Shown here piece after piece: positions 29,123-47,583 of a stretch of 64,000 nt of DNA (positions are counted from its first letter, which is position 1; every line of letters begins with the position of its first letter). The stretch lies in contig JAIQFN010000007.1 in NCBI GenBank assembly GCA_020073265.1, positions 62,001-126,000 of the forward strand, read 5' to 3'. The notes below the pieces were generated by a model. It searched no databases and was not told where the DNA came from. It was given only the letters and a program-made list of their open reading frames with translations. Made by a program: the position numbers and the translations under genes. The stretch is from Terriglobia bacterium. Its GTDB lineage: Bacteria; Acidobacteriota; Terriglobia; Bryobacterales; Bryobacteraceae.

Positions 29123-29860
29123 CTACTCGAGGCGGATGATCGATTCATCATAGGTGGCCTCGATGCGTTTGCCCGGAGGTATCACCAGGAACTCGCGATC
29201 GTCCCATTTGCCGTCCAACAGCCGCTGGAAGATCCCCAGGTCGCCGGCCACCTTCTCGAATTTCCAGCCGCGAGCCGCCGCGTCCTCGCGCGCCTCCCGC
29301 TCGAAGCTGCCGTCCGGTTCCACGCCCATCTGGATGAACGTCAACTGGCCGTAGTTGCGGGTGTAGTTGCCGAGCTGTTCCCAGAGGAACTTCGCGTCCT
29401 CCTCGCCGTACTTGTCGACCAGCCCCTCCCAGGTGTAGCCGATGCCGGTTTTGTCGCGCAGGCTCGGCTCTTTGAGCTGCTGGAGACCCGCGCCGCGCTC
29501 GATCCAGCCGGTGGTCTTGAAATACGCACCCGGGTGGGAGGTGAAGTACTCCAGGTAGCGCTCCTTGCTGCCGAGGAACAGCGTGATGCAGTCGTGCCCG
29601 CGCGGAATCACAATCGGGATCGAGCGCGCCGTCAGGCCGACGACGCCCGTCCCGCAAAGCGCATAGCCAAGCACGACCGCCTGGTAAGTGGCCGGGTCCG
29701 CGGCGTCCACCATCGCTTGCAGGCGCGCGCACATGTCGGTTGAAGCGATGTCGTGCAGCCCCTTGGGCAGAAACTCGACGTCCACCTGGTTGGGCGATCG
29801 CGCCAGCACGGTGCACATCTCACGGTACAGGATTTCGCAACTGATCAGTTTCAGGCGCAT
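29123..29860 (-). CDS. DUF1638 protein
   Basis: A 245-residue DUF1638 protein. It has 'LISCEILYREMCTVLA' at the N-terminus, 'VVLGYALCGTGVVGL' and 'PIVIPRGHDCITLFLGSKERYLEYF', which hold conserved Cys and His that could bind a metal. In established genome contexts DUF1638 genes accompany corrinoid-dependent methyltransferases. Here it lies nine bases downstream of the MtaB-type gene, on the same strand, which agrees with that. No signal peptide; cytosolic. Function is not known; a role in metal or corrinoid handling is inference. Confidence 0.83.
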   Translation of the reverse strand: MRLKLISCEILYREMCTVLARSPNQVDVEFLPKGLHDIASTDMCARLQAMVDAADPATYQAVVLGYALCGTGVVGLTARSIPIVIPRGHDCITLFLGSKERYLEYFTSHPGAYFKTTGWIERGAGLQQLKEPSLRDKTGIGYTWEGLVDKYGEEDAKFLWEQLGNYTRNYGQLTFIQMGVEPDGSFEREAREDAAARGWKFEKVAGDLGIFQRLLDGKWDDREFLVIPPGKRIEATYDESIIRLE

Positions 29861-29869
29861 TCGAAGGTC

Positions 29870-31267
29870 TCAGGCCAAGCCATAGCTTGACGGATCGAAC
29901 AGTGCCCCATACGTGTCTCTCATCTCGGCAAGCAACTCATCTTCCGATGTTGGAAGATCTGCGACGGCGGCGATCATCCGATCGAGCCATTGACGCTCGC
30001 TGGCCGGCGGCGTCCAGTGGCCTGCCGCTGCTCCCTCGCGGAGGATCGCGAGCGCCTCGCGTGCCGCCGCGATGGTGCGGGCATAGGCGCCCGATGCGCT
30101 GACGATAGCCGAGGCGATTCGAACAGTGGCCTCGGGCGAAAGAACGGCCGCTTGCGGACTTCGCCATTCGTCGGACTCCGAGAGCCAATCGCGCAGCATC
30201 CTTGCCCCGCCTCGGCGTGCCGCCGTGTTCATCAAGCGGCAGTCGTAGGCGAGCAGTTCAGCGAAGGCCTCCGGTGCGTTGCCTGAAAGCAGCCGGACAT
30301 TTTGCACGGACTCGTTGCTCCACAGGTCGCAAGCAGCGGCGGCGATGTTGCCGACCGGGCTGAAGTGCGCGCAGGTGGCCGACTTGCCTTCCATCGCGAT
30401 CGGGCAGCCGGTGATGGCCTTCAGAATCGGCCCCTCGTAAGCGCAATCCTTCGACGGTCCCACCGCGCCCTGCTCAAACGCCGCCAGGCTGCGCACCGCC
30501 GCCGCCGCGCGGACCATCGCCGCCAGAACCTCGGGCAGCATTTTCTGATGCGCGAGCTGCATGGCGGTGTTGGCGAAGCCGCAGGCTGAATCGCCGCCCG
30601 GCACGGCGCGGGTGCCGCGGCACAATTCGACGATTTGTCCCCACAGCCACGACATATCACGCGGCGCCAGAACTCCCAGCGCGAAGAAAATTCCCCGGAT
30701 GTCGCCGTACATCAGCGCCTGGTCGTGCACCTCTTTTCCGCCCACCGATTCGATGGAGATGATGTCGGCGCCTGCCTGGATACACAGCTCGAAGCTGCGC
30801 TTCAGCTTCTCCCACGGCTCGCCCTTGCGAAGCATCGGCGGTTTGAACTGGTCGCGGATATCGGTCGGCGTGACGCGCAGTGCCGAGCGCAGACCGGACT
30901 TCGCATGCGCCTGCTCGAGGTGCCGATGCAGAAGCGCCGTGATCTCCGCGCCCCATTCGGGCCGGTCGGTCATGGCCGGGAGCAGCTCGAACTCGAGCAC
31001 CACACCGGGCGCATCCAGCGCGGTTATGCGGCGAAGGATCTGGGTGGCCATCTCCTGGTAGTGCGCCACCACCTGAACCCAGGTCTCGCCGTTGATCGCA
31101 ATGGCCGGCAGTGTGAAGTTGACTTCCGGATACACTTCGCCGCCGCCGATGGTGAGGTCGAACCCGCAGCGCAGCGGCCGTGGAGCTCTTCCGAAGATCA
31201 GCTCATCGGGATCGCCGATCGTCAATCGATTCCAAACTTCACAAGGTGCGGGTGCATTGGTCGTCAT
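29870..31267 (-). CDS. mtaB: MtaB-type methanol:corrinoid protein methyltransferase
   Basis: A 465-residue protein from ATG 31267, preceded by GAGG at eight bases; the frame back to 31357 is not used. It aligns along its whole length with methanogen MtaB (about 461 residues), from 'DPDELIFGRAPRPLRCGFDLTIGGGEVYPEVNF' through 'KAITGCPIAMEGKSATCAH' to 'DPSSYGLA'. The three zinc ligands known for M. barkeri MtaB (Glu164, Cys220, Cys269) correspond to E173 (SIESVGGKEV), C229 (GDSACGFAN) and C275 (SKDCAYEG), all present. The enzyme should activate methanol, or a related methoxy donor, and methylate a corrinoid protein such as the one at 44269. It overlaps the homocysteine methyltransferase-like gene by 29 bases. 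True substrate is untested. Confidence 0.88.
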   Translation of the reverse strand: MTTNAPAPCEVWNRLTIGDPDELIFGRAPRPLRCGFDLTIGGGEVYPEVNFTLPAIAINGETWVQVVAHYQEMATQILRRITALDAPGVVLEFELLPAMTDRPEWGAEITALLHRHLEQAHAKSGLRSALRVTPTDIRDQFKPPMLRKGEPWEKLKRSFELCIQAGADIISIESVGGKEVHDQALMYGDIRGIFFALGVLAPRDMSWLWGQIVELCRGTRAVPGGDSACGFANTAMQLAHQKMLPEVLAAMVRAAAAVRSLAAFEQGAVGPSKDCAYEGPILKAITGCPIAMEGKSATCAHFSPVGNIAAAACDLWSNESVQNVRLLSGNAPEAFAELLAYDCRLMNTAARRGGARMLRDWLSESDEWRSPQAAVLSPEATVRIASAIVSASGAYARTIAAAREALAILREGAAAGHWTPPASERQWLDRMIAAVADLPTSEDELLAEMRDTYGALFDPSSYGLA

Positions 31268-32213
31268 GTGTTTTCCTCGGGTGAGCCTGCTGGGATGCTC
31301 GCACGGCCGCCGCCATCGCCCGGATGTGGGCGGGGCTTGTGCCGCAGCAGCCGCCAATCACGTTGGCGCCGGCCTGGAGCAGTTCCGCCACGCGCGACGC
31401 CATGTATTCGGGAGTCTCCAGGAACACCGTCTTGCCGTCTTCGATCACCGGCGTCCCGGCGTTGGCTTGGATCAGAATCGGCGTGCGCGGTGCGGCAGCG
31501 CGCATCTGGCCGGTGATCTCGATCATGCTGGCGATTCCATTGCCGCAGTTCGCGCCGACGACATCGGCTCCGGCGTCGAGCGCCGCCAGCGCGGCCTGGT
31601 CCGGTTTCACGCCCATCATCGTACGAAAACCCTTGGCTCCCGGGTTGAAAGTGAATGTGCAGATCACCGGGAGCTGGGTGTTCTGTTTGGCGGCGCGAAT
31701 GGCCTGGACGGCTTCACGAATCGACGCCATGGTCTCGATGCAGATCGCATCGGCGCCACCAGCGGCCAGGGCGACGGCCTGCTCGGCGAACGCGGCGGAG
31801 AGCTGTGCGGTGGTGACGTCGCCGCCTTCTTCCTCAAGGATGTGGCCGGTGGGGCCTACCGAAGCGGCCACGTATCCTTTGCCCGTGATCGCCCGTTTCG
31901 CCAGGGCCGCGGCAGCCCTGTTGAACTCGCCGCATCGCTCGGCGAAACCGTAGGCCCGCAGCTTGAATGGATTGCCGCCGAACGAATTCGTCTCCACGAT
32001 GTCCGCGCCAGCTTCGATGTAGGCCTCGGCGATCCCTTGCACCAATTCGGGATGAGAAATGCACCAGGACTCTGGACATTCACGCGCCGCCAGACCTTTG
32101 GTATGCAGAAGAGTACCCAGCGCGCCATCGCAGATCAGGAGATCACCCTCGCCGAGCCGCTCGAGCAGAGTCTTCAGAGATTCCTCCTTCGAATCAGGTA
32201 AGAGCGCTTGCAC
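31239..32213 (-). CDS. Homocysteine S-methyltransferase-like protein
   Basis: A PF02574-type TIM-barrel of about 324 residues. The zinc ligands are visible: Cys in 'VGANCGNG' and the CysCys of 'GGCCGTSP' near the C-terminus. The N-terminus 'DLLICDGALGTLL' is the usual first strand. The start is uncertain: GTG 32213 is the last standard start before the domain, an outer frame runs to 32348, and AAGGAGG followed by CTG at 32177 is also possible. It is first in the operon with MtaB and DUF1638, so it could accept methyl groups from the methyl-corrinoid protein onto homocysteine, or serve methionine salvage. It overlaps MtaB by 29 bases. Confidence 0.82.
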   Translation of the reverse strand: MQALLPDSKEESLKTLLERLGEGDLLICDGALGTLLHTKGLAARECPESWCISHPELVQGIAEAYIEAGADIVETNSFGGNPFKLRAYGFAERCGEFNRAAAALAKRAITGKGYVAASVGPTGHILEEEGGDVTTAQLSAAFAEQAVALAAGGADAICIETMASIREAVQAIRAAKQNTQLPVICTFTFNPGAKGFRTMMGVKPDQAALAALDAGADVVGANCGNGIASMIEITGQMRAAAPRTPILIQANAGTPVIEDGKTVFLETPEYMASRVAELLQAGANVIGGCCGTSPAHIRAMAAAVRASQQAHPRKTHDDQCTRTL

Positions 32214-32510
32214 GTAGCTGCCCGGCTGTGCTGGCACCGTCCTCAGCGGGCAACTGCGGCGGCTGGTCTCGGCTCGCCGCCAGCGGTGGCGATCCGATTT
32301 GTGGCTGCATCCGCGAATTGGAAAGCGAGTTGCCATGAGGATTGCCACGATGCGTCAGGCGAACCCAAGAGCCGCAGATTCTAGGGTGTCTGGACCTACA
32401 GCCAGGAGGCGTCAGCCTTGAAAAGACATTGGCAGTCTGAGACGATGCGAGAAATAACCCAAGACTTGTGTGTTTTGACGCAAACCCTTGGTTCCAAGGA
32501 AGTTCAGCCA

Positions 32511-34457
32511 ATGAAACTCACGAACTTTTGGCCGTTTTGTGGTTCGAAATGTCTGTTCAGAATCTCGGCTGTCACGTTCGCGATGGCGCTCGCCGTCACA
32601 GCGCAATCGGGTTCCTCCTGTGTCTCGCTCTACGAGAGTGCGCCTCCCCCTTTGCGTCATGCGGCCGTTCGACTATCCGAGCAAACCGGATTTCCGGTGA
32701 GCCAAGGTTCGCCGGAGCAGCGCTGCGTCCGGATCGAATTGAACGCTATGCAGAATCCGCGAATCGGGTCGCAAGGGTACACCATCGCCTCCGCCAACCA
32801 GGGGAACATCACGATTCGCGGCAACGATGCGGAAGGAGCCGCCAACGGCGTCTACACGCTGTTGCGTACGCTGCTGATCGAGCACCGCACCGATCCGTTC
32901 ACCAGGACCTGGAGCATCGAAGAAAAGCCGCAGTTCTCGATTCGCGCGATCCAGGTGGCGCCCTACCGCTTCGGCGGATCCTTCGGCTTCGCCGTGCTCA
33001 GCTCGGACCGCTGGTCGCTCCAGCAATGGAAAGAGTACGTCGACCTGATGCGGCTGTGCAACATGACCACGCTGTCGCTGGTCCCGGCGCGCGTGTACGA
33101 TCCCGAGTATCCGAATAGCCGCCGGGAAGAATGGCGCTACGAAATCTGGAAGCAAGTGATGGACTACTGCCACCAGGTGGGGATCAAGTTCAACTGGATG
33201 ATCAGTCCCATCATGACTTCCGAGCAGGCCTTCTTCGATAACCCGGACAAGCGCGGCGACAAAGTGGGCGGCGCGTGGTTCGGAAACGAGATGAGCTGGG
33301 CGAACGGAAAAGACATCATCCTCAAGAACCAGAAGCACACGCTCGAGTACTTCCGCGGCCTGGACTCGCTCGAGATCATTTACAACGACGGAGGAGGCAT
33401 CCGGCCCGAGATCCCCGACCCGTCCGCCGCCTTCGCCGACATGACCCGCAGCTACATCCAATTGCTGCACGAGACCGGCAACAACTCGAACTTCGTGTTC
33501 TGGAACTGGTGGATGGACTTGTGGGCCCAGGCGGTTCGGGGCGAGACGGCCAAGCAGTATCCGAAATACACCACGGTGCAGGACGACATCATCCCGCTGC
33601 TGCCGAAGAATGTCGCCTGGCTGGACGCATCGGCGCTGACTCAGATCCAGACCTTCGGCCAAGTGCTTCGAATGCTCGGAAATCCGCCGGTCCGCGAAGG
33701 CTTGCTGATCGGCAAGGAGAACGGATTCAAGCCCGTCATCGATTTCTTCTGGTACATGAATCCCGAGCACTCCATCAACATGTTCCCGCACCCCTATATC
33801 CAGCGCGGGATTCAGGAAGCGCAATACGCCCGCGATGAAATCGGAGCGGACGGCGCCATGGGCTACCGTCTAGCGCCAACGCTGCGGTTCATCGACGACT
33901 ACATCTTTTTCCGCCTGACGTCGGATCCGTCGCTCACCGAGCAGCAGCTGGCCGGAGAAGTCGCCGGTTTGCTATGCGAGAAACCGGAAGATCAGAAGCA
34001 GGCTGCCGAGGCGATCCACACGCTGGAGCGTTTCTGGACTGATCGCAAGCTTGGAGACCTGGTGAAGGCCGAAGAGTTGTTCCGCACGCTGTTGCCGCGA
34101 GAGAAGTCCAAGAATCTCGAGTACGCCAGCAATGGAGTCACGTTTCTCACCTACGTGGTCCGGATGGCTGAGCCCGGAATCACCGAGGCCCGGAAAAAGG
34201 AACTCAAGAATCAGCTATGGGAGGCGGTGAAGCCCATGTACGTCTTCCAGGGCCTGACCGCGGACATCGTCTGGGTCCCGGAAGCGCTGCGGTTCTTTTC
34301 GGCGCGGGTCGACATGATGGTCGAAGACTACCAAGCGGGCTGGATGACCTCGCGGAACGCGGAAGTAGTGGACCGCAGTCTCTATCCCAAGGGCACGCCT
34401 CAGCCGTTCACCGTCAATTGGCAGAAGACCACTGCCAGCGGAGGAACTCATGAATAA
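32511..34457 (+). CDS. Exported glycoside-hydrolase-like protein, tandem copy 1
   Basis: A 648-residue protein from ATG 32511, preceded by aaggaag; the frame to 32418 is not used. After a signal peptide (cleavage near VTAQS) the first ~120 residues have the pattern of the N-terminal domain found before GH20/GH67 barrels: 'RIGSQGYTIASANQGNITIRGNDAEGAANGVYTLLRTL'. A large barrel-like region follows: 'QFSIRAIQVAPYRFGGSFGFAVLSSDRWSLQQWKEYVDLMRLCNMTTL' and 'LEIIYNDGGGIRPEIPD'. I cannot place it in a CAZy family. The stop overlaps the next gene's start by eight bases. First gene of the ten-gene plus-strand run. Confidence 0.66.
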   Translation: MKLTNFWPFCGSKCLFRISAVTFAMALAVTAQSGSSCVSLYESAPPPLRHAAVRLSEQTGFPVSQGSPEQRCVRIELNAMQNPRIGSQGYTIASANQGNITIRGNDAEGAANGVYTLLRTLLIEHRTDPFTRTWSIEEKPQFSIRAIQVAPYRFGGSFGFAVLSSDRWSLQQWKEYVDLMRLCNMTTLSLVPARVYDPEYPNSRREEWRYEIWKQVMDYCHQVGIKFNWMISPIMTSEQAFFDNPDKRGDKVGGAWFGNEMSWANGKDIILKNQKHTLEYFRGLDSLEIIYNDGGGIRPEIPDPSAAFADMTRSYIQLLHETGNNSNFVFWNWWMDLWAQAVRGETAKQYPKYTTVQDDIIPLLPKNVAWLDASALTQIQTFGQVLRMLGNPPVREGLLIGKENGFKPVIDFFWYMNPEHSINMFPHPYIQRGIQEAQYARDEIGADGAMGYRLAPTLRFIDDYIFFRLTSDPSLTEQQLAGEVAGLLCEKPEDQKQAAEAIHTLERFWTDRKLGDLVKAEELFRTLLPREKSKNLEYASNGVTFLTYVVRMAEPGITEARKKELKNQLWEAVKPMYVFQGLTADIVWVPEALRFFSARVDMMVEDYQAGWMTSRNAEVVDRSLYPKGTPQPFTVNWQKTTASGGTHE

Positions 34458-36357
34458 GATCAGAATCGCAGCCGCTGCTTTCCTGGCGGCGATAAGCGGG
34501 GCCATGGCCGCGCCGTTGCCATCCATATCGTCCTACGCGAACGCGCCCACTGCGCTGCGGCATGCCATGCACCGGCTGTCCGACTACACCGGGTTTCCGC
34601 TGGAAGCGGCCGCGAGCGAGCAGCCGGCTATCCGCATCGAGTTGAATGCAACTCCGAACGCCGGCATCGGCGCGCAAGGGTACACCATCGAGTCCACCGG
34701 CGGCGGCATCGCGATTCGCGCCAACGAAGCCGAAGGCGCGGCCAACGGTGTCTACACGCTGCTTCGGACGCTGATGATCGAACATCGCAAGGACCCGTTC
34801 TCGCGGAAGTGGAACATCCAGGAGAAACCGCAGTTTTCCGTTCGGGCCATGCTGGTTGCGCCTTACCGCTACGGCGCCTCCTACGGCTTTGCGGCGCTGA
34901 GTCCGGACCGCTGGTCGATCGAGGAATGGCGCGAGTACGTCGACATGATGCGGCTATGCAACATGACCACGCTGGTGATGGCTTCCACACGCATGTACCA
35001 TCCCGACTATCCCGATAGCCGGCGCGAACAGTGGCGCTTCGAGGTCTGGAAGGAAGTGATGGACTACTGCCACCAGGTGGGAATGAAGTTCAATTGGTTC
35101 ATCTTTCCGAACCTGGTCACTGAGCAAGCCTTTTGGGACAACCCCGACAAGCGGCCGGAAATGAAGGGCGGCGCCTGGCACGGCAGCATGCTGAGCTGGG
35201 CCAAGGCGAAAGACATCATCCTCAAGAATCAGAAATACACGCTGGAGTTCTTCCGCGGCCTGGATGGACTCGAAATTATCTACAACGACGGAGGCGGCGT
35301 TTCGCCCGACATCCCCAACCTGGCGGAATGCTTCGCCGACGAGACCCGCAGCTACATCCAGCTCCTGCGCGACACGGGCAACGATGCGCAGTTCGTCTAT
35401 TGGAACTGGCTGATGGATCTGTGGGCGCAGGGCGTCTCCAAGCGCGATGCCGAGAAATTTCCCAAGTACCGCACGGTGCAGGACGACATTGTTCCTCTGC
35501 TTCCCAAGAACGTCACCTGGCTGGACGCTTCGGCCCTGACTCAGGCGCAGACCTTCGGGCCGTTCCTCAAGGCGTGGGGCAACGCACCGGTGCGCGAGGG
35601 CCTTCTGATCGGCAAGGAAGCTGGATTCAAGCCGGTGATCGATTTCTTCTGGTACATGAACCCCGAGCTGGCGATCAACATGTTTCCGCATCCGTTCATT
35701 CGCCGCGCCATGCAGGAAGCGGTATATGCGCGAGACGAGGTCGGTTCTGAGGGCGTGATGGGATACCGGCTCGCGCCGCCTACACGATTCGTGGACGACT
35801 ACGTGTTCTTCCGCCTGGCTTCGGATCCGTCGCTGACACAGGCGCAACTGGTCGCCGAAGCCGCCGGGTTGCTTTGCGAAAAGCCGCAGAACCAAAAGCA
35901 GGCGGCCGAGGCGATCAACACACTCGAACGGTTTTGGTCGACGCGGCAACTTGAAGACCTCGAGAAAGCCGATCGCTTGTTCAAGGTGCTGTTGCCCGAA
36001 GAGCGCTCGAAGAATCTTGAATACGTCAGCAATGGCGTTACTTTCCTGACCTACGTCGTTCGGATGGCTCAGCCGGGAGTGGGGGCTGCCCGCAAGGCGG
36101 AGCTGAAGCGCGATCTCTACCAGACCGTGAAGCCGATGTACATCTTCCAGGGCCTGGTCGCCGACATCGTGTGGATTCCAGAGGCGGTCCGGTTCTTTTC
36201 GGCGCGGGTGGACATGATGGTCGAGGATTACAACGCGCCGTTCATCACCTCGTCCAATTCGGAATTGGTGGACCGGAGCGTGTATCCCAAAGCCACGTCG
36301 AAGCCGTTCACTTTGCGCTGGCAGCCGGCGCAAACGGCGGGAGGGACTCACGAATGA
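34450..36357 (+). CDS. Exported glycoside-hydrolase-like protein, tandem copy 2
   Basis: A 635-residue paralogue of the preceding gene, nearly colinear over the full length (for example 'EGAANGVYTLLRTLMIEHRKDPF', 'YVDMMRLCNMTTLVMASTRMYHPDYPDSRRE', 'EIIYNDGGGVSPDIPN', 'VIDFFWYMNPELAINMFPHPFI'). Signal peptide MNKIRIAAAAFLAAISGAMAA. It overlaps the preceding gene by eight bases and the next by four (ATGA), so translation of all three is coupled. Conserved acidic residues in 'YNDGG' and 'DDYVFFRLASDPS' are catalytic candidates. Substrate unknown; context suggests a plant or microbial glycan. Confidence 0.66.
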   Translation: MNKIRIAAAAFLAAISGAMAAPLPSISSYANAPTALRHAMHRLSDYTGFPLEAAASEQPAIRIELNATPNAGIGAQGYTIESTGGGIAIRANEAEGAANGVYTLLRTLMIEHRKDPFSRKWNIQEKPQFSVRAMLVAPYRYGASYGFAALSPDRWSIEEWREYVDMMRLCNMTTLVMASTRMYHPDYPDSRREQWRFEVWKEVMDYCHQVGMKFNWFIFPNLVTEQAFWDNPDKRPEMKGGAWHGSMLSWAKAKDIILKNQKYTLEFFRGLDGLEIIYNDGGGVSPDIPNLAECFADETRSYIQLLRDTGNDAQFVYWNWLMDLWAQGVSKRDAEKFPKYRTVQDDIVPLLPKNVTWLDASALTQAQTFGPFLKAWGNAPVREGLLIGKEAGFKPVIDFFWYMNPELAINMFPHPFIRRAMQEAVYARDEVGSEGVMGYRLAPPTRFVDDYVFFRLASDPSLTQAQLVAEAAGLLCEKPQNQKQAAEAINTLERFWSTRQLEDLEKADRLFKVLLPEERSKNLEYVSNGVTFLTYVVRMAQPGVGAARKAELKRDLYQTVKPMYIFQGLVADIVWIPEAVRFFSARVDMMVEDYNAPFITSSNSELVDRSVYPKATSKPFTLRWQPAQTAGGTHE

Positions 36358-38495: not shown

Positions 38496-38506
38496 AGGAG
38501 AACCCG

Positions 38507-40651: not shown

Positions 40652-40678
40652 GCTGCGCCAGTACGACCACAGACAACC

Positions 40679-41662
40679 ATGTACACGCCACAGACATTCG
40701 CCGCTGCCCTGACATTGGTGATCTTCAGCATGTGCTGCTGGGGTTCCTGGCCGAACTTCCTCAAGGCCATGCCGAAGTGGCGGCTGGAATACTTTTATCT
40801 CGACTACGCAATCGGCTTCCTGATCACCGGCGTCGCAATCGGAGCCACCTTCGGGTCGACGACGGCGTCCGTGCCGCCTTTCTTCACTCGCCTGGCGCAG
40901 GCGGGTGGGACGGAGATGTTATTTGCAGTACTGGGGGGCTTTCTGTGGAGCCTCGGAAACGTGCTCATGATCAACAGCATCGCGATTGCCGGACTGGCGG
41001 TCGCGTTTCCAGTCTCGTCAGTTCCGGCGCTGGTTCTCGGCGTGGGCATGGCCTACTGGACGAACCCGATTGGCAACCCGGCTTGGCTTGCCGGGAGCGT
41101 GGTGGTCTTGTTGGCGGCCGCCGTCGCCAACGCGCAGGCTTATAAACGGCTGACCACCGCAGCGGAGATGAACAAGACCAAAGGAATGCTGCTGGCGCTC
41201 GCTTCCGGCGTCATGGTTGGCATATTTCCGCCCTGCGTAAGTCGCGCGATCAGCGGCGCTCACGCGCTCGATTCCTACTCGGTGTCGGTTTACTTCATGC
41301 TTGGCGCTCTCGCGGCGACGCTGGTCGCGGTTCCCATCCTGCTCGCAAGGCCGTTGGTGGGGAGCGCCGGCAACCTGTGGGGTTACGTTCGGGGGCGGAT
41401 GGCATGGCACGTGCTAGGACTGCTTGCTGGATTCCTGTGGAGTTTCGGAACCGTGTTCAATTTTGTGTCCGCCGGAAAGGTTGGCATGGCGATTAGCTGG
41501 GGAGTTGGCAGCGGAGCCCCGATGGTGGGAGCGCTCTGGGGGATTTTCCTCTGGAAGGAATTCTCGGGGGCCGGACGAAACGCCAAAGTCTTGATTGGAA
41601 CCAGCCTGGCGCTTTACGCTTCCGGCGTGGCTGCGGTCGCGCTGTCGTATACGGGTCAGTGA
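40679..41662 (+). CDS. DMT-superfamily sugar/ureide-type permease
   Basis: A 327-residue membrane protein with about ten predicted transmembrane helices. The N-terminus 'LVIFSMCCWGSWPNFLKAMPKWRLEYFYLDYAIGFLITG' resembles the GRP glucose-uptake and plant ureide-permease group of the DMT superfamily. 'AFPVSSVPALVLGVGMAYW' and 'AISWGVGSGAPMVGALWGIFLWKEF' are matching repeat halves. It lies between secreted glycan enzymes and cytosolic enzymes in one operon, so it probably imports their product across the inner membrane, by proton coupling. Substrate unknown; sugar is the first guess, ureide or nucleobase the alternative. Confidence 0.75.
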   Translation: MYTPQTFAAALTLVIFSMCCWGSWPNFLKAMPKWRLEYFYLDYAIGFLITGVAIGATFGSTTASVPPFFTRLAQAGGTEMLFAVLGGFLWSLGNVLMINSIAIAGLAVAFPVSSVPALVLGVGMAYWTNPIGNPAWLAGSVVVLLAAAVANAQAYKRLTTAAEMNKTKGMLLALASGVMVGIFPPCVSRAISGAHALDSYSVSVYFMLGALAATLVAVPILLARPLVGSAGNLWGYVRGRMAWHVLGLLAGFLWSFGTVFNFVSAGKVGMAISWGVGSGAPMVGALWGIFLWKEFSGAGRNAKVLIGTSLALYASGVAAVALSYTGQ

Positions 41663-41685
41663 ATAGTTGGATCAAAGGAGGCTGC

Positions 41686-43068
41686 ATGAAACACCTCGGA
41701 CATGATTCGCGGGTCAGCGATGGGCGCACCCGCCGCCTGGTCTCGCTGTTGTTGTTTGCTTTTCTCGGCGCCACCGGTTTGCCGGCACAGGAAAAACCGG
41801 GCGGGTTGCTCGACAACCTCTATCAACTGCGCGACACCAAGACCTACCGGATTTCGTCTGCCGACAAGACCGGCGGCAACATCGACTGGATCACCATTCC
41901 GCCTGGTAAAACCCAAACGCTTGCGGAGATCTCGGGCGCGGGCGTAATTCGACGCTTCTACCTGGCGCCGCTCGCCGCCGATCGCATGCGTTACCGGAAG
42001 GCCATCTTGCGGATCTACTGGGATGGCGAAAAAGAGCCGTGCGTGGAGGTTCCCATCGGAGACTTCTTCGGCTCCGGCTTGGGGACCCTCCGATACTTTC
42101 ACTCGCTGGCGGTCGACGTGAATCCCGGCTTCCAGGACTGGGATTTCGATGGGATGGTAAATTACCTGCCGATGCCGTTCGAAAAAGGAGCGCGGATTAC
42201 GCTCGAAAATGACGGCCAGGTTCCGGATTTCCGCCTCTGGTATCACTTCGACATCGAGCAGTTTCCCGACGGAAAGCTGCCCCCGAACACCGGCAGGCTG
42301 CACGCTCAATGGCACGATGCCAAGCAGATGCCCGCCGAGCCGGGCGGCCCCAAGAACACCACGCTCGGGAATGTATTTGTCAAAAATCCCGAAGGCAAGG
42401 GCAACTTCGTAATCCTTGACGCGGAAGGAAAGGGAACCTATGTCGGCCTGTTCCTGACGGTAGACAACGTGGTCGGCGGATGGTATGGCGAGGGAGACGA
42501 CATGATTTTCATCGACGGCGCCAGGCTGCCTACCTTCGCCGGCACCGGCCACGAGGAAGTCTTCAACAGCGGCTGCTGTCCCGACAAGGAATTCTGGGGC
42601 GCTTACACCGGCTTTTATGTCATCCAGAACAGCAACGCGAACTTCGGCGGCAAGAACCAGATGTACAAATTCTACGTGAACGATCCGGTGCGCTTCTCCA
42701 AATCGATTCGCGTGACCATCGAGCACGGGCATGCCAACAATTTCGAGAACGACTATACCGCGACGGCTTTCTGGTACCAGCAGGAGCCGCACAAGGCGTT
42801 CCCGCCGATGCCGAACGCGGCCGAGCGGCTGCCTCGCTGGCCGGCCGAGGTAAGCCAGGCGCTTGCGACGGAGCTGGAGGTGAACCGGATGCTGGCGCGA
42901 GCGAAGGCCCGGCTCAGTCCCGCCGAGTCCAAGCGCGCGGATGCGCTGGTGGCCGAATGCAACCGTTCGTTCCGGGAACTGCGCCATCAGGACTACGTGC
43001 GCGCGGTCAAGGAGCTCCAGGACTTGGTCGGGTACGTAAAGCCGCCGGCGGTTCCAACCGGCAACTAG
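41686..43068 (+). CDS. Exported DUF2961 (GH172-like) protein
   Basis: A 460-residue protein from ATG 41686, with AAGGAGG five bases upstream; a GTG nine codons earlier is not needed. Signal peptide ends near GLPAQE. The double jelly-roll DUF2961/GH172 fold is indicated by 'TYRISSADKTGGNIDWITIPPGKTQTLAEISGAGVIRRFYL', 'GDFFGSG' and 'FAGTGHEEVFNSGC', which aligns with the usual 'GTGTEDYF' block holding a catalytic Glu, and by 'YVNDPVRFSKSIRVTIEHGHAN' with the second Glu. Known GH172 enzymes cleave fructofuranosides or arabinofuranosides. It lies 23 bases after the transporter gene and 16 before the UroD-type gene. Confidence 0.82.
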   Translation: MKHLGHDSRVSDGRTRRLVSLLLFAFLGATGLPAQEKPGGLLDNLYQLRDTKTYRISSADKTGGNIDWITIPPGKTQTLAEISGAGVIRRFYLAPLAADRMRYRKAILRIYWDGEKEPCVEVPIGDFFGSGLGTLRYFHSLAVDVNPGFQDWDFDGMVNYLPMPFEKGARITLENDGQVPDFRLWYHFDIEQFPDGKLPPNTGRLHAQWHDAKQMPAEPGGPKNTTLGNVFVKNPEGKGNFVILDAEGKGTYVGLFLTVDNVVGGWYGEGDDMIFIDGARLPTFAGTGHEEVFNSGCCPDKEFWGAYTGFYVIQNSNANFGGKNQMYKFYVNDPVRFSKSIRVTIEHGHANNFENDYTATAFWYQQEPHKAFPPMPNAAERLPRWPAEVSQALATELEVNRMLARAKARLSPAESKRADALVAECNRSFRELRHQDYVRAVKELQDLVGYVKPPAVPTGN

Positions 43069-43084
43069 TCGAAAGGAAGAAACC

Positions 43085-44218
43085 ATGACGCCCAGACAAC
43101 GTGTGATGGCTGCGATGAATGGAGAAGAACTATATCCGGTGCCGCTCGACGTATTTGAAAACGGCGTTCATCCGCTGCTGCGCGCGAAACTGCTGAAACA
43201 CTTCGGACTTGCAGACGATGACAACGAAGGCCTGTTGAAGGCCCTCCAGGCATCCATTCGCTGGTGCCGGCCTCTATATATAGGTCCGGAACTCGAGGAG
43301 GACCGCGAAAGTTCCCACGTTCCCGTCTATCCTGCGCTGAAGCTGGTGAAGGACATCTGGGGGACCTGGGGCGAATCCGCAGCCACCTACTACGACGGCC
43401 TGCCCCGTCCGTTTCGCGACGCCGAGACCGTCGGCGACATCGATGCGCATCCCTGGCCGAATCCCGATTGGTTCGATTACAACAAGGTCGCCTGGATTCT
43501 CGATCCGCCGGAAGCGTACATCCCAGTCGACCAATGGGCCCGGCGCAACAGCGACTACGCGCGCCTGGCCGGCGGCTGGAGTCCCATCTTCGCCAAGGCC
43601 ATGGACATGTTTGGCATCGAGACCGGTCTCATGAAAATTGCCGAGCGTCCCGACCTGATGGAAGCCACCGTCAACCACATCGGTGATTTTCTGGAAGAGT
43701 ACTACCGCCGCTTTGCGCGTGCCGGCCGCGGCCACTACGACATTCTCGCTTGGGGCGACGACTTCGCCAGCCAGCAAAGCCTGATGCTACGGCCGGCCTT
43801 GTGGCGGCAATGGTTCCTGCCAATCTGGAGACGGCTGTTTGCAATCGCCCACGAAAATGGGATGAAAGCGGCGCTGCATTCCTGCGGCGCGGTGCGTAAG
43901 GTGATCGGCGATCTGGTGGATGCCGGGCTGGACATCCTGGAAAATGTCCAGACCACCTCGACCGGAATGGATCCGGCGGAACTGAAGCGGGAGTTCGGCA
44001 AGCACCTCACGTTCTACGGAGGCATGGACACCCAGGTGATCCTGCCTTTGGGCAGTGTCGAGGATGTGCGACGCGAGGTTCGGCACCTGATCGACACCCT
44101 GGGCAAGGACGGGCGCTATATCTTCACCACGTCGCATTACCTGATGGACGACGTGCCGATAGAGAACGCGCTGGCAATGCACGACGAGGCGTTTTCATAT
44201 CGAGCGGTGTTGGCGTAG
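43085..44218 (+). CDS. UroD-family (MtaA/CmuA-like) methyltransferase
   Basis: A 377-residue protein of the uroporphyrinogen decarboxylase superfamily. The zinc-type motif H265-S-C267-G in 'MKAALHSCGAVRKVIGDLVDAGLDILENVQ' is that of the corrinoid methyltransferase branch (MtaA, MtbA, CmuA), not of heme-pathway UroD. The C-terminal 'TTSHYLMDDVPIENALAMHDEAF' is typical of the branch, but there is no Cys after C267, so the third Cys ligand of MtaA is missing or replaced. Next to a corrinoid protein (50 bases downstream) it should donate to or accept a methyl group from it. It could be the substrate-side or acceptor-side enzyme. Confidence 0.85.
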   Translation: MTPRQRVMAAMNGEELYPVPLDVFENGVHPLLRAKLLKHFGLADDDNEGLLKALQASIRWCRPLYIGPELEEDRESSHVPVYPALKLVKDIWGTWGESAATYYDGLPRPFRDAETVGDIDAHPWPNPDWFDYNKVAWILDPPEAYIPVDQWARRNSDYARLAGGWSPIFAKAMDMFGIETGLMKIAERPDLMEATVNHIGDFLEEYYRRFARAGRGHYDILAWGDDFASQQSLMLRPALWRQWFLPIWRRLFAIAHENGMKAALHSCGAVRKVIGDLVDAGLDILENVQTTSTGMDPAELKREFGKHLTFYGGMDTQVILPLGSVEDVRREVRHLIDTLGKDGRYIFTTSHYLMDDVPIENALAMHDEAFSYRAVLA

Positions 44219-44268
44219 AGCGGCTTCGCCGCCTGCGTGTATGAGATCGATGACTACGGGAGACATTC

Positions 44269-44916
44269 ATGCCTGATCTTCAGAAGCTATACGATGCAAT
44301 TCTCAACGGCGACAACAAGGCCGCCGCTTCGATTACCAAGGAGGCCCTGGCGCAGGCAGTCGAGCCCATGGACCTGGTCAACAAGTACATGATTCCCGCC
44401 ATGGATGAGGTGGGGCGGCGCTTCGAGAGCGAGGACTGCTTCGTGCCGGAGTTGCTGCTGTCCGCGCGAGCCATGAAGGGATCGCTCGAGTTGATCCGGC
44501 CTTTGCTGGCGGCGCGCGGAACCGAGCCAGCCGGCCGCGTCGCCATTGGAACGGTGCAAGGCGACCTGCACGATATCGGCAAAAACCTGGTGGCCTCGAT
44601 GCTCGAAGGCGGCGGCTTCGAAGTGGTGGATCTCGGCGCCGATGTTTCGCCCGAGAAGTTCATCGCAGCCATCCAGAGCCGCAGGATCGATGTCGTGGCC
44701 CTCTCCGCGCTGCTCACGGTGACCATGCCGACGATGAAAACAACCATTGAGGCGCTTACCCTGGCCGGCGTCCGTCAGAAGGTCAAAGTGATCGTGGGCG
44801 GCGCTCCCGTGACCAAGGAGTACGCCAAACAGATCGGGGCCGACGGGTTCGCTGAAAACGCGATCTCGGCCGTCTCGCTCGTGCGCAAGATGCTGGCCGA
44901 GCAGCCGGTGGCGTGA
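44269..44916 (+). CDS. Corrinoid (B12-binding) methyl-carrier protein
   Basis: A 215-residue protein of the MtaC/MtbC/MttC type. Residues 1-85 form the helical cap ('ALAQAVEPMDLVNKYMIPAMDEVGRRFESEDCFVPELLLSARAMK'), and residues 88-212 form the Rossmann B12-binding domain with the base-off/His-on motif D99-L-H101-D-I-G104, then 'LSALLTVTMPTMKTTIEAL' and 'VIVGGAPVTKEYAKQIGADGF'. It carries the methyl group between methyltransferases. It sits between the UroD-type gene and the reductive activator gene. A MtaB partner is 13 kb away on the other strand. Cytosolic. Family assignment is very secure; partner is inferred. Confidence 0.93.
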   Translation: MPDLQKLYDAILNGDNKAAASITKEALAQAVEPMDLVNKYMIPAMDEVGRRFESEDCFVPELLLSARAMKGSLELIRPLLAARGTEPAGRVAIGTVQGDLHDIGKNLVASMLEGGGFEVVDLGADVSPEKFIAAIQSRRIDVVALSALLTVTMPTMKTTIEALTLAGVRQKVKVIVGGAPVTKEYAKQIGADGFAENAISAVSLVRKMLAEQPVA

Positions 44917-44970
44917 TGAACGCGGCTCGGCGACTGCTTCCGCAATGTCGCTGGATTGCGAAACATCCTC

Positions 44971-46482
44971 ATGGACCAGCCTGTACGCATCAGGCTCGAA
45001 CCCCTCGGTGAGGTTATCGAGGTCGCTAGCGGCACGCCGCTCAAGGACGTACTGTTCCTGCGCGGGGTCGAATTCCCGTGCGGCGGCCATGGCCGTTGCA
45101 AGCGCTGCCGCATCAAGGTCCTCGCAGGGAACCTCCCTATTGCCGCGGCGGAGGAGAGCCTGCTATCGCCCGGCGAATTGGCCGAGGGCTGGCGGCTCGC
45201 CTGTCACGCGCGACCTGAAACCGCGGTGACGCTCGAAGTCGCGCAGTGGGAAACCGCCATCCTAGCCGACGATTCGACGTTCGACTTCACGCCCGGCGAG
45301 GGCCTCGGCATCGCGGTGGATCTGGGCACCACCACCCTGGTGGCGCAGTTGCTCGATCTCAGCACCGGCCGCACGCTGGCCGTCAGCAGTACACTCAATC
45401 CGCAGGCCACTTGCGGCGCCGACATCATGAGCCGTGTGCAATACGCGGTGCTGGAGAATGGTCAGCATCGGTTAGAGGCGTTCATTCGCGGCGCCATCGG
45501 ACGGCTGATCCGCAACCTGCTACAAGGCTGGACCGGGCCGGAGGCGCCCCCGGTTCGTCGCATCACGATTGTCGGCAATACCGTGATGCACCACCTGTTC
45601 TGCGGTATTGACGTGACGCCGCTTTCCCGGGTGCCATTCGAGCCGGTACGCGATGGCCTCGAAGTCTTTCGCGCCACGGACCTGGGATGGGAGATCGCGG
45701 GCGACGCTCCGGTGAATTTCCTGCCGTGCCTCGGCGGGTTTGTCGGCAGCGACATTCTGGCTGGATTTCTCGCCACCAGGATGCAGGAGAGCGATGCTCT
45801 GGTCGGCCTCATAGACCTCGGCACCAACGGCGAGATCGCCTTCGGCACTCGCGATCGCATCATCTGTGCTTCGACCGCTGCGGGTCCGGCGTTCGAGGGA
45901 GGGCTCATTTCGATGGGGATGCGGGCTTCCACCGGCGCGATCACCGAGGTCACCGCGTCCGATGGAGGCCTGCAATGCCGCGTCATCGGTAACGCATCGC
46001 CGCGCGGCATCTGCGGCAGCGGGCTGGTGGATGCCGTTGCGGTCGGCCTCGAACACGGATATGTCCAGCCCAACGGCCGGCTGCCGGGTCCCTCGCATCG
46101 CTTCCCGCTGTGCCCTCCGGTCGAGTTGACACAGGGCGACATCCGGCAATTGCAACTCGCCAAGGGAGCGGTTGCGGCGGGTATCCGCATCATCCTGGCG
46201 CGCCTCGGCGCCTCGCCGTCCGACGTCCAGCGCGTCTACCTGGCTGGGGCTTTCGGTAACTACATCAATCGCACCAGCGCGCGCCGCATCGGCCTGATCG
46301 ATTTCCCCAACGATGTCGTCGAGCCTGCTGGCAACACCGCGCTGCTTGGCGCCAAGCTGGCACTGTTCACGCCGGACATCGACTTCGCGTCCATCCGCGC
46401 TCGGGTCCAGCACATCGTGCTGAGCGCCGATCCGAATTTCGAAGAGATATACGTCGGGGAAATGGGCTTCCCTACGGCGTGA
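44971..46482 (+). CDS. Corrinoid reductive activator (RACo/RACE-type, 2Fe-2S plus ASKHA)
   Basis: A 503-residue protein from ATG 44971; TTG 44956 is an alternative adding five residues. The N-terminus has a plant-type 2Fe-2S domain: C37, C43 and C46 in 'FPCGGHGRCKRCRI' plus C78 in 'RLACHA'. A linker and a large ASKHA domain follow, with 'GIAVDLGTTTLVAQLLD', 'GLIDLGTNGEIAFG' and the late 'VYLAGAFGNYINRTSARRIGLI'. Such proteins use ATP and low-potential electrons to rescue oxidised Co(II) corrinoid protein. It is downstream of the corrinoid protein by 54 bases. Its presence argues that the methyl transfer system is functional and in need of repair. Confidence 0.9.
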   Translation: MDQPVRIRLEPLGEVIEVASGTPLKDVLFLRGVEFPCGGHGRCKRCRIKVLAGNLPIAAAEESLLSPGELAEGWRLACHARPETAVTLEVAQWETAILADDSTFDFTPGEGLGIAVDLGTTTLVAQLLDLSTGRTLAVSSTLNPQATCGADIMSRVQYAVLENGQHRLEAFIRGAIGRLIRNLLQGWTGPEAPPVRRITIVGNTVMHHLFCGIDVTPLSRVPFEPVRDGLEVFRATDLGWEIAGDAPVNFLPCLGGFVGSDILAGFLATRMQESDALVGLIDLGTNGEIAFGTRDRIICASTAAGPAFEGGLISMGMRASTGAITEVTASDGGLQCRVIGNASPRGICGSGLVDAVAVGLEHGYVQPNGRLPGPSHRFPLCPPVELTQGDIRQLQLAKGAVAAGIRIILARLGASPSDVQRVYLAGAFGNYINRTSARRIGLIDFPNDVVEPAGNTALLGAKLALFTPDIDFASIRARVQHIVLSADPNFEEIYVGEMGFPTA

Positions 46483-46518
46483 AAAGCACGTTTCCGAGGT
46501 ACACTCGATTGAGCCCTC

Positions 46519-47583
46519 ATGCCTCTGACAACGTTCTTAAACCGACGCGCCGCCTCGATAGACACAGGCACGCACCGCGTCACGGTGCTCGCTGGGGGCG
46601 GGCATGTGGCGGAAATTCTGGACAAGGCGAGTGGCGTCAATCCACTTTGGACTCCGCCCTGGCCCACAACGGATCCCTCGTCTGGCGCTGCGAATAGTCC
46701 GGCCTATGGTTCCGAGGCCGAGGCGAGAATGCTTGCGGGTATTACGGGGCACAACCTTTGCATGGACATCTACGGCGATCCCTCGGTCGAGGAGATTGCC
46801 GCCGGATTGACCCTGCACGGTGAAGCATCCGTGGTAACGTACCAGCTCACCGCGGAATCCGGAACACTGCTGTCGAAGGCGGAACTGCCACTGGCGCAAC
46901 TCGGCATCGAGCGTGAGCTGCGGCTCCAGCCGGATTCCCCGGTGATCCGATTCTCGGAGACGGTGGAGAACCTGTCGGGAACCGACCGGCCAATCGCCTG
47001 GACCGAACACGTCACCGTCGGGCCGCCGTTTCTCGAAAAAGGCGTCACCAGGTTCTGCCTTACGGCCACGCGCTCGAAGACCTTCGAAGGCGAGTTCGGC
47101 GACACCTACCAGATCGACACCGAGTTTGACTGGCCGTACGCGCCGCGCCAGGGCGGCGGAACAATCGATCTGCGCACCTTCACCGATGCTCCATCCTCGT
47201 CCGGCCTCACCACTCACCTGATGGACCCGCGGCGCTTGCAGGCCTACTTCGTCGCGTGGTCGCCGCGATCCAAGCTGGCGTTCGGATACGTTTGGAATCG
47301 ATCGGATTTCCCATGGCTCGGTATCTGGGAGGAAAACTACTGGCGCCAGGCCCCGCCATGGAGCGGCAAGACGCTCACGCGCGGCATGGAGTTCGGCGTT
47401 TCTCCGATGCCCCAGACCCGCCGCAGGATGATCGGCCGCGAACCGCTATTCGGAGTTCCCGGATATCGCTGGATCCCCGCGCGAAGCCGTGTCCGCGTGG
47501 ACTACTGCGCCTTCCTCACCCACGCCGAGAAGCCTCCAGACGATGTCACCTGGGACGGCGGCTGGCAACTGATGCTCAAGTAA
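46519..47583 (+). CDS. Aldose-1-epimerase/mutarotase-fold protein
   Basis: A 354-residue protein with an all-beta galactose-mutarotase-like fold: 'HRVTVLAGGGHVAEILDKASGVNPLW' at the N-terminus, 'FSETVENLSGTDRPIAWTEHVTVGPPF' in the middle (His and Glu in the usual central positions) and 'FGYVWNRSDFPWLGIWEENYW' later. No signal peptide. It lies 36 bases after the corrinoid activator gene, last of the ten-gene run. Probably binds or epimerises a sugar imported by the upstream permease; substrate unknown. Confidence 0.72.
   Translation: MPLTTFLNRRAASIDTGTHRVTVLAGGGHVAEILDKASGVNPLWTPPWPTTDPSSGAANSPAYGSEAEARMLAGITGHNLCMDIYGDPSVEEIAAGLTLHGEASVVTYQLTAESGTLLSKAELPLAQLGIERELRLQPDSPVIRFSETVENLSGTDRPIAWTEHVTVGPPFLEKGVTRFCLTATRSKTFEGEFGDTYQIDTEFDWPYAPRQGGGTIDLRTFTDAPSSSGLTTHLMDPRRLQAYFVAWSPRSKLAFGYVWNRSDFPWLGIWEENYWRQAPPWSGKTLTRGMEFGVSPMPQTRRRMIGREPLFGVPGYRWIPARSRVRVDYCAFLTHAEKPPDDVTWDGGWQLMLK

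Follow-up and report, generated by a model that had tools for sequence, protein, structure and literature searches.

A stretch of 64,000 nucleotides from the genome of a Terriglobia bacterium of the family Bryobacteraceae (contig JAIQFN010000007.1, positions 62,001 to 126,000; hereafter, the window) harbors a locus that combines glycan-type genes with the parts of a corrinoid methyl-transfer system (Table 1). Thirteen genes were confirmed, namely, ten on the plus strand (32511-47583) and a divergent trio on the minus strand (29123-32213). The ten-gene run is as compact as an earlier reading made from the sequence only (hereafter, the sequence-only reading) had described it, with small gaps and several overlaps; measured from start and stop positions, the overlaps are 8, 4 and 4 bases and the gaps 11, 27, 16, 50, 39 and 36 bases, the largest thus being 50. 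Family matches likewise bear out the order given in that reading, in which the glycan genes are followed by a UroD-type methyltransferase, a corrinoid carrier protein (CP) and a reductive activator, and the composition of the trio, that is, MtaB, homocysteine S-methyltransferase (HcyMT) and DUF1638; what had been called a mutarotase-like last gene retains only a weak DUF4432 match. The start of the third plus-strand gene lies at 36354, since 36351 does not hold a start codon, and HcyMT probably starts near 32213 rather than 32348 because its Pfam match covers the long form only from residue 71 onward and the gene caller agrees. To the left of the trio lie paralogues of two operon genes, in the same order as their counterparts in the run; therefore, the methyl-transfer genes are embedded within the glycan-type locus, not attached to its end.

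Table 1. Genes and other features of the locus, with positions in the window and the evidence for each assignment
Feature	Position	Strand	Basis
Glycan-type protein, paralogue of 36354-38495	24820..26976	+	DUF6259 below cut-off; 54% identity over 716 aligned positions
Glycan-type protein, paralogue of 38507-40651	26984..29095	+	56% identity over 714 aligned positions
DUF1638, putative helper of corrinoid reactivation	29123..29860	-	120.9 bits; role by analogy with Phaeobacter
MtaB-like methanol:corrinoid methyltransferase	29870..31267	-	PF12176 525.4 bits, cut-off 25
HcyMT, proposed acceptor-side enzyme	31239..32213	-	S-methyl_trans 227.5 bits; long form would start at 32348
Intergenic region between divergent units, presumed regulatory	32214..32510	.	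No Rfam match, no promoter-like consensus
GH20b-domain protein A	32511..34457	+	69% identical to B; family otherwise very rare
GH20b-domain protein B	34450..36357	+	Pfam GH20b domain
Glycan-type protein without Pfam match	36354..38495	+	Distant relative of 38507-40651 (23% identity)
Alpha-galactosidase-like protein (weak)	38507..40651	+	Melibiase 26.6 bits, cut-off 27; 2yfn, E 2.1e-7
Permease, ureide/sugar transporter kind	40679..41662	+	Ureide permease 65.8 bits
DUF2961 protein	41659..43068	+	236.2 bits; resembles solved glycosidases 4kq7, 8ah3, 7v1v, 8ic8
UroD-family methyltransferase, proposed second methyl-donor enzyme	43085..44218	+	URO-D 73.6 bits; H265, C267, H351
Corrinoid carrier protein (CP)	44269..44916	+	B12-binding domains 107.4 and 82.9 bits; GDLHDIGKN motif
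RACo/RamA-like reductive activator, N-terminal 2Fe-2S domain	44956..46482	+	RACo C-terminal 214.5, middle 163.5 bits
DUF4432-like protein (weak)	46519..47583	+	28.7 bits, cut-off 32.5; relatives in 124/150 family genomes

The label glycan-type is based on weak family matches, paralogy and the glycosidase similarity of the DUF2961 protein. This similarity is significant (7v1v, E 6.3e-59; 8ic8, E 7.2e-30), the matched enzymes being a difructose dianhydride I synthase/hydrolase and an exo-alpha-D-arabinofuranosidase of what we take to be family GH172, and glycosidase activity is only predicted. The GH20b domain of proteins A and B is barely above the cut-off of 26.1 (26.9 and 31.8 bits), and export of the glycan-type proteins was judged by eye from their N-termini. 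A Pfam search of the window operon revealed no pectinesterase.

The methyl-transfer genes are better defined. MtaB aligns over its full length to 2i2x_A (312.7 bits) and, as counted on the alignment, conserves the equivalents of E164, C220 and C269, presumably the zinc ligands, which supports the identity proposed for it from the sequence, and it scores 432 bits against a cut-off of 720 for the NCBIfam equivalog NF040651. CP has the GDLHDIGKN motif typical of corrinoid carriers, and the nearest PDB match of this protein, 1y80 (208.2 bits), which we take to be a Moorella thermoacetica protein, lies far above the MtaC chain 2i2x_B (86 bits). The locus encodes together a UroD-family enzyme, CP and a RACo/RamA-like activator, and contains both a RamA-like activator and DUF1638. 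In Phaeobacter, the split methionine synthase genetically requires DUF1638 and a RamA-like protein, the role of DUF1638 being left undefined in that work (PMC5764234).

At the positions that form the metal site of MtaA, the window UroD has H265, C267 and H351, so that the third ligand, Cys in MtaA, is replaced by His. The MtaA-type site, which we take to be H-x-C plus a distal Cys, is accordingly missing from this protein, and its match to the MtaA/CmuA subfamily is weak (54.4 bits, cut-off 235.4). Among relatives, UroD1 proteins have H, C and H, with His in all 43 rows extending as far as the third position, whereas UroD2 has Cys there in 30 of 33 and UroD3 has H, C and C in 9 of 9; a looser, mixed group that includes the window protein (n=29) has His at the third position in 20 and Cys or Asp at the second in 15 and 13, respectively. 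We infer that UroD2 and UroD3 are thiol-type or unloading enzymes and that UroD1 enzymes act on the donor side.

The distribution of these genes was examined in 150 genomes of the family, including the window's own (6.4 Mb, 131 contigs). MtaB found matches in 21 genomes, UroD in 61 (E 1e-10) and DUF1638 in 62. CP presence, read by hand, was taken as the stronger class of matches (best E < 1e-75); 14 genomes that have a second, weaker type of CP were counted as negative. So defined, UroD and CP occur together in 58 genomes, UroD only in 3, CP only in 7 and neither in 82 (Fisher p 1e-29, the related genomes not being independent); the corresponding counts are 58, 4, 7 and 81 for DUF1638 and CP, and 18, 3, 47 and 82 for MtaB and CP. 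When the window MtaB protein was searched against 396 genomes spread over the phylum, of which the family's share is not known, the own genome alone was returned, so MtaB seems uncommon in the rest of the phylum. The window UroD protein found no relative when searched against genome contigs. Within the own genome, MtaB and DUF1638 have one match each; CP has three, of which only that of the window is strong among the matches listed. Two places match the window UroD (E 0.001), each beside a member of the GH20b-domain family, and a third copy of that family (L151:10418-12346, without a Pfam match; L and G numbers denote our loci and genomes) adjoins the second UroD gene on the same contig. This family was detected in 1 of the 150 genomes, the window's own (E 1e-20), and its alignment, searched against genome contigs, found one relative, in a locus of an Acidobacteria metagenome-assembled genome with no UroD beside it; there are, therefore, three copies on one contig, none in the other 149 family genomes and one in that assembly.

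Around the corrinoid protein, the same parts recur. Runs were defined by a common strand and gaps of at most 150 bases; 2 of the 52 loci had no called CP and were left out, and genomes with two CP loci count twice among the remaining 50. The genes of these loci were called with a codon-usage caller trained on the window genes, which missed some genes that BLAST revealed (CP of L166 and L169, HcyMT of L121). In 8 of the 50 loci, UroD1, CP, HcyMT, DUF1638, UroD2 and RACo form a single run, and 8 further loci have the same set without UroD1; over all 50, HcyMT shares the run with CP in 29 and UroD1 in 23, and overlaps of 4 bases are common. The window has the parts of this recurrent operon in split form, lacking UroD2 and having MtaB in addition. 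In L116, L111, L121, L123, L127 and L165, the RACo gene is neighbored by the gene of a hemerythrin-domain protein (domain tested only on L116:6515-7042), which perhaps protects Co(I) chemistry from oxygen. A radical SAM protein (tested on L141:16739-17821) is encoded close to the corrinoid module in 10 of the loci retrieved. In L155-L159, a second CP type, 46-48% identical, accompanies RACo and, as tested on L157, a pterin-binding protein, perhaps as a folate-linked version within the same family.

The link between corrinoid and glycan genes that had been drawn from the window is also seen in relatives, where at least 10 of the 50 CP runs include a carbohydrate gene (a sugar porter in 4, a Pec_lyase-type protein in 3 and a GH2-type protein in 3). 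The porter lies inside the run in L140, L141, L149 and L165, from two genera, and 5 bases after the activator in L093, from a third; the L141 protein passes the sugar porter family TIGR00879 (365 bits, cut-off 237.8) and fails the aromatic acid/H+ symport family (126.4 bits, cut-off 418.55), and the remaining members of its cluster are 55.6-91.2% identical to it. The L141 operon comprises UroD1, CP, UroD3 and the porter. The Pec_lyase-type protein adjoins CP in L119, L120 and L130, all of one genus, and the GH2-type protein lies within the run in L093, L108 and L135 (L130 and L135 by clustering only). L119 and L120 combine an outer-membrane-receptor-like protein, the pectic-lyase-type protein and CP in one run, and L130 shows the lyase and CP only, at a contig end; the genomes of these loci have no MtaB match. 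Of the 55 accessory genes of CP runs, 47 were scanned, the rest being short, hemerythrin-type or the FCD regulator. Among the best 25 of the 64 families matched, the commonest are sugar transporter, MFS and xylose isomerase-like (4 each), followed by radical SAM and CarboxypepD_reg (3 each); GH9, GH99, fucose pyrophosphorylase, sulfatase and GntP permease occur once each, and non-carbohydrate families, such as PhyH and TauE (2 each), are present as well.

MtaB directly adjoins CP in 4 of 19 loci (a G039 fragment was left out); with 4 CP genes set aside from 63 neighbors, the 59 scanned include 5 GntR/FCD regulators, 3 GH2 proteins, 1 fucosidase and 2 BD-FAE esterases, both in L091. In L099:4167-6582 (G499), the MtaB gene shares 38 bases with a gene of the UroD family, and a sodium:solute symporter is encoded upstream of them. 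For CP-distant UroD genes, we scanned 111 of 133 near neighbors and 111 of 135 far ones, selected by size limits and, in the far set, also at random. The near genes include 4 fucosidases, 3 3-keto-disaccharide hydrolases, 2 GH42M and 2 Rha78A-N proteins, none of these four families being present, within the best 25 of 182 families, among the far genes of the same loci; unrelated families, such as YchF and histidine kinases (3 each), are also found near UroD. L172 of G037 resembles the window in composition: three UroD-family genes share a single run with a fucosidase and a permease of the RhaT type.

Methanol and methoxy compounds are well-known donors in corrinoid-dependent methyl transfer, and O-methyl sugars and methyl esters are present in many plant, algal and microbial glycans. 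The gene content, the spacing and the presence of glycan-type paralogues on both sides of the trio favor a reading in which glycan breakdown is coupled to the recovery of the methyl groups of the glycan, with MtaB and UroD feeding one CP and HcyMT unloading it; we put its probability at about 0.55. Under this scheme, secreted enzymes and the sugar permease would deliver pieces of a methylated glycan, and MtaB would, by homology, transfer the methyl of methanol to the reduced cobalt of CP. The UroD-type enzyme may load the same cobalt from a second donor, probably the O-methyl group of a released sugar; that this enzyme demethylates sugars is a tentative and rather doubtful proposition. HcyMT would then pass the methyl of methyl-CP to homocysteine, giving methionine, as its family and the absence of a recognised folate-type partner suggest, and the RACo-like protein, aided, by analogy, by DUF1638, would re-reduce oxidised cobalt with ATP.

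As the final acceptor, the sequence-only reading had offered homocysteine or folate. Homocysteine is likely to be the acceptor because HcyMT is the sole acceptor-side enzyme seen with CP here, and the presence of HcyMT in more than half of the CP runs of relatives points the same way. The folate half of the proposal fares worse: in this genome, the only matches to PF00809 are MetH and a single 309-residue frame, presumably FolP, which makes a folate route look unlikely. The MetH is complete and above its curated cut-off; therefore, basal methionine synthesis should be able to proceed without HcyMT and CP. Across the wider family, co-occurrence suggests a hub of CP, HcyMT, DUF1638 and activator fed by UroD-type enzymes, some of them encoded in separate loci. 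It is conceivable, if improbable on present evidence, that the whole family combines such a hub with an expanded UroD set, each member serving one methylated sugar from its own glycan locus, in an oxygen-independent sugar O-demethylation whose methyl groups are assimilated as methionine.

Several observations weigh against the coupling of glycan breakdown to methyl recovery. The exact arrangement of the window was found nowhere else in the 150 family genomes or in a profile search of genome contigs, so the gene order, whose recurrence in other Acidobacteria had been suggested as a check, is not conserved. The genus mates G001-G004 have no UroD, MtaB, DUF1638 or strong CP class, which suggests a recent gain of the locus by transfer; it is also possible that the contig was mis-binned, and tetranucleotide composition did not separate a foreign from a native origin. 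At the protein level, the NCBIfam cut-offs for MtaB, MtaC and MtaA were all missed, the window UroD shares no more than 27-34% identity with the 14 members of the family to which it was aligned, and UroD2 is absent from the window. HcyMT is absent from the run in 21 of the 50 CP loci, some of them at contig ends, and 40 of the 50 runs have no assignable carbohydrate gene, the unlabelled genes having been tallied but not assigned to loci. Co-transcription of the ten-gene run is surmised solely from spacing. Finally, an association of fucosidase genes with 94 UroD places, taken from among the matches listed, was picked for testing after the neighbor families had been seen, so its support is modest: of 100 of the 130 fucosidase matches (about 99 bits or more), 3 lie within 1.5 kb of UroD (expected 0.36, p 0.006; 12 genomes), 5 within 5 kb (expected 1.21, p 0.008) and 6 within 10 kb (expected 2.42, p 0.037). 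A corresponding association of rhamnosidases (GH78) was rejected, with none of the strongest 23 of 62 matches within 1.5 kb and 1 of 23 within 5 kb (expected 0.33).

Other explanations can be given for the same genes. The UroD enzymes could be O-demethylases of methoxylated aromatics from lignin or plant phenolics, as in acetogens and Methermicoccus, with the glycan neighbors brought in by a common plant source. The partners of the corrinoid genes make this unlikely: in the runs of relatives, these are GH2 and Pec_lyase proteins and a sugar porter that falls below the aromatic symport cut-off, and in the window, glycan-type proteins. No family known to us as specific for aromatic catabolism appears among the best 25 of 64 families of CP-run accessory genes. 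Nevertheless, the characterised UroD-type donors MtvB, OdmB, VdmB and MtoB use methoxy-aromatics (PMC13222342, PMC8630106), the PDB entry nearest to CP is 1y80, and peat Acidobacteriota express methoxy-compound methyltransferase genes (PMC10805028).

The corrinoid set might also be a split methionine synthase or a general methyl-salvage system that came to lie in a glycan locus by chance, an idea to which the parts themselves lend some color, since HcyMT, CP, the RamA-like protein and DUF1638 are those of the Phaeobacter system and its reactivation (PMC5764234), and 8 of the 50 family runs consist of CP, HcyMT, DUF1638, UroD2 and RACo without UroD1. We nonetheless regard it as improbable: the own genome has its complete MetH and, by PF00809, no recognised separate pterin-binding module, MtaB and UroD are of the methyl-donor type, and the system is associated with carbohydrate genes repeatedly, in more than one kind of context. 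Least probable is the notion that MtaB alone matters, with methanol from methyl esters as the sole donor and UroD as an MtaA-like second-stage enzyme that unloads the corrinoid. The weak MtaA/CmuA match of UroD and the esterase-like or GH2 neighbors of some relatives' MtaB genes would fit; however, the third-ligand position is His in the window UroD as in every UroD1 row that extends to it, with Cys predominating in UroD2, and MtaB finds no match in 41 of the 61 genomes that match UroD.

The proposed coupling of glycan breakdown to methyl recovery shares features with several known systems. Like the MtaBC(A) system of methanogens and acetogens, the locus has an MtaB homologue with conserved ligand positions, a corrinoid carrier and a reductive activator, but its CP resembles 1y80 more closely than MtaC, no UroD of the locus has the MtaA-type H-C-C site, and the operon contains glycan-type genes, with HcyMT as the likely acceptor enzyme. 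With the O-demethylases Mtv, Odm, Vdm and Mto and the dehalogenase Cdm, it has in common a UroD-superfamily methyltransferase, CP and activator; in contrast to these, no folate-type (pterin-binding) second methyltransferase was recognised in the own genome, and the context is carbohydrate, not aromatic. The split methionine synthase of Phaeobacter and the marine Mtg glycine betaine system similarly have separate homocysteine and corrinoid modules, a RamA-like reactivator and DUF1638 (PMC5764234, PMC12478193), whereas the window genome has a complete MetH and no recognised separate pterin module, and the donor enzymes of the window are MtaB and UroD rather than enzymes for methyl-folate or betaine. 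In marine bacteria, methyl groups are likewise removed from sugar, in this case 6-O-methyl-D-galactose, during polysaccharide use, but by a P450 monooxygenase that releases formaldehyde (PMC10033563), whereas the transfer proposed here would proceed via a corrinoid without oxygen.

The sequence-only reading knew of no described system of this composition. This holds in so far as a search of the open-licence literature returned no paper that couples corrinoid methyl transfer to glycan operons; it does not hold for all the parts, given that mtaB and methoxy-compound genes of Acidobacteriota have been reported as expressed in peat (PMC10805028). What is new is the proposed glycan coupling and homocysteine route, MtaB in Acidobacteriota being already on record. 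Should the coupling be real, a corrinoid route would handle capped sugars without oxygen and without formaldehyde, the sugar O-demethylation route that we found in print being that of the P450 monooxygenase (PMC10033563). A function would also emerge for UroD-type methyltransferases of unassigned substrate: the characterised donors act on methoxy-aromatics or halomethanes, and the published tree has clades without a known substrate (PMC13222342). It would, moreover, touch on the fate of methanol in peat, a habitat in which Acidobacteriota are thought to be rivals of methanogens for this substrate (PMC10805028).

Among the minor features, structure predictions were of low confidence for the window UroD as a single protein (predicted local distance difference test, pLDDT, 40.6) and for the GH20b-domain protein from three sequences (pLDDT 49.5). 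An Rfam scan of the window gave no match, so no cobalamin riboswitch was recognised. Consensus scans yielded 7 terminator-like sites against a shuffle mean of 14.4, two of them on the plus strand and both within genes, and 2 promoter-like sites where 3.1 were expected. Elsewhere in the window, the protein at 49123-51174 matches a fused MFS/spermidine synthase family with 73.8 bits, against a cut-off of 40.

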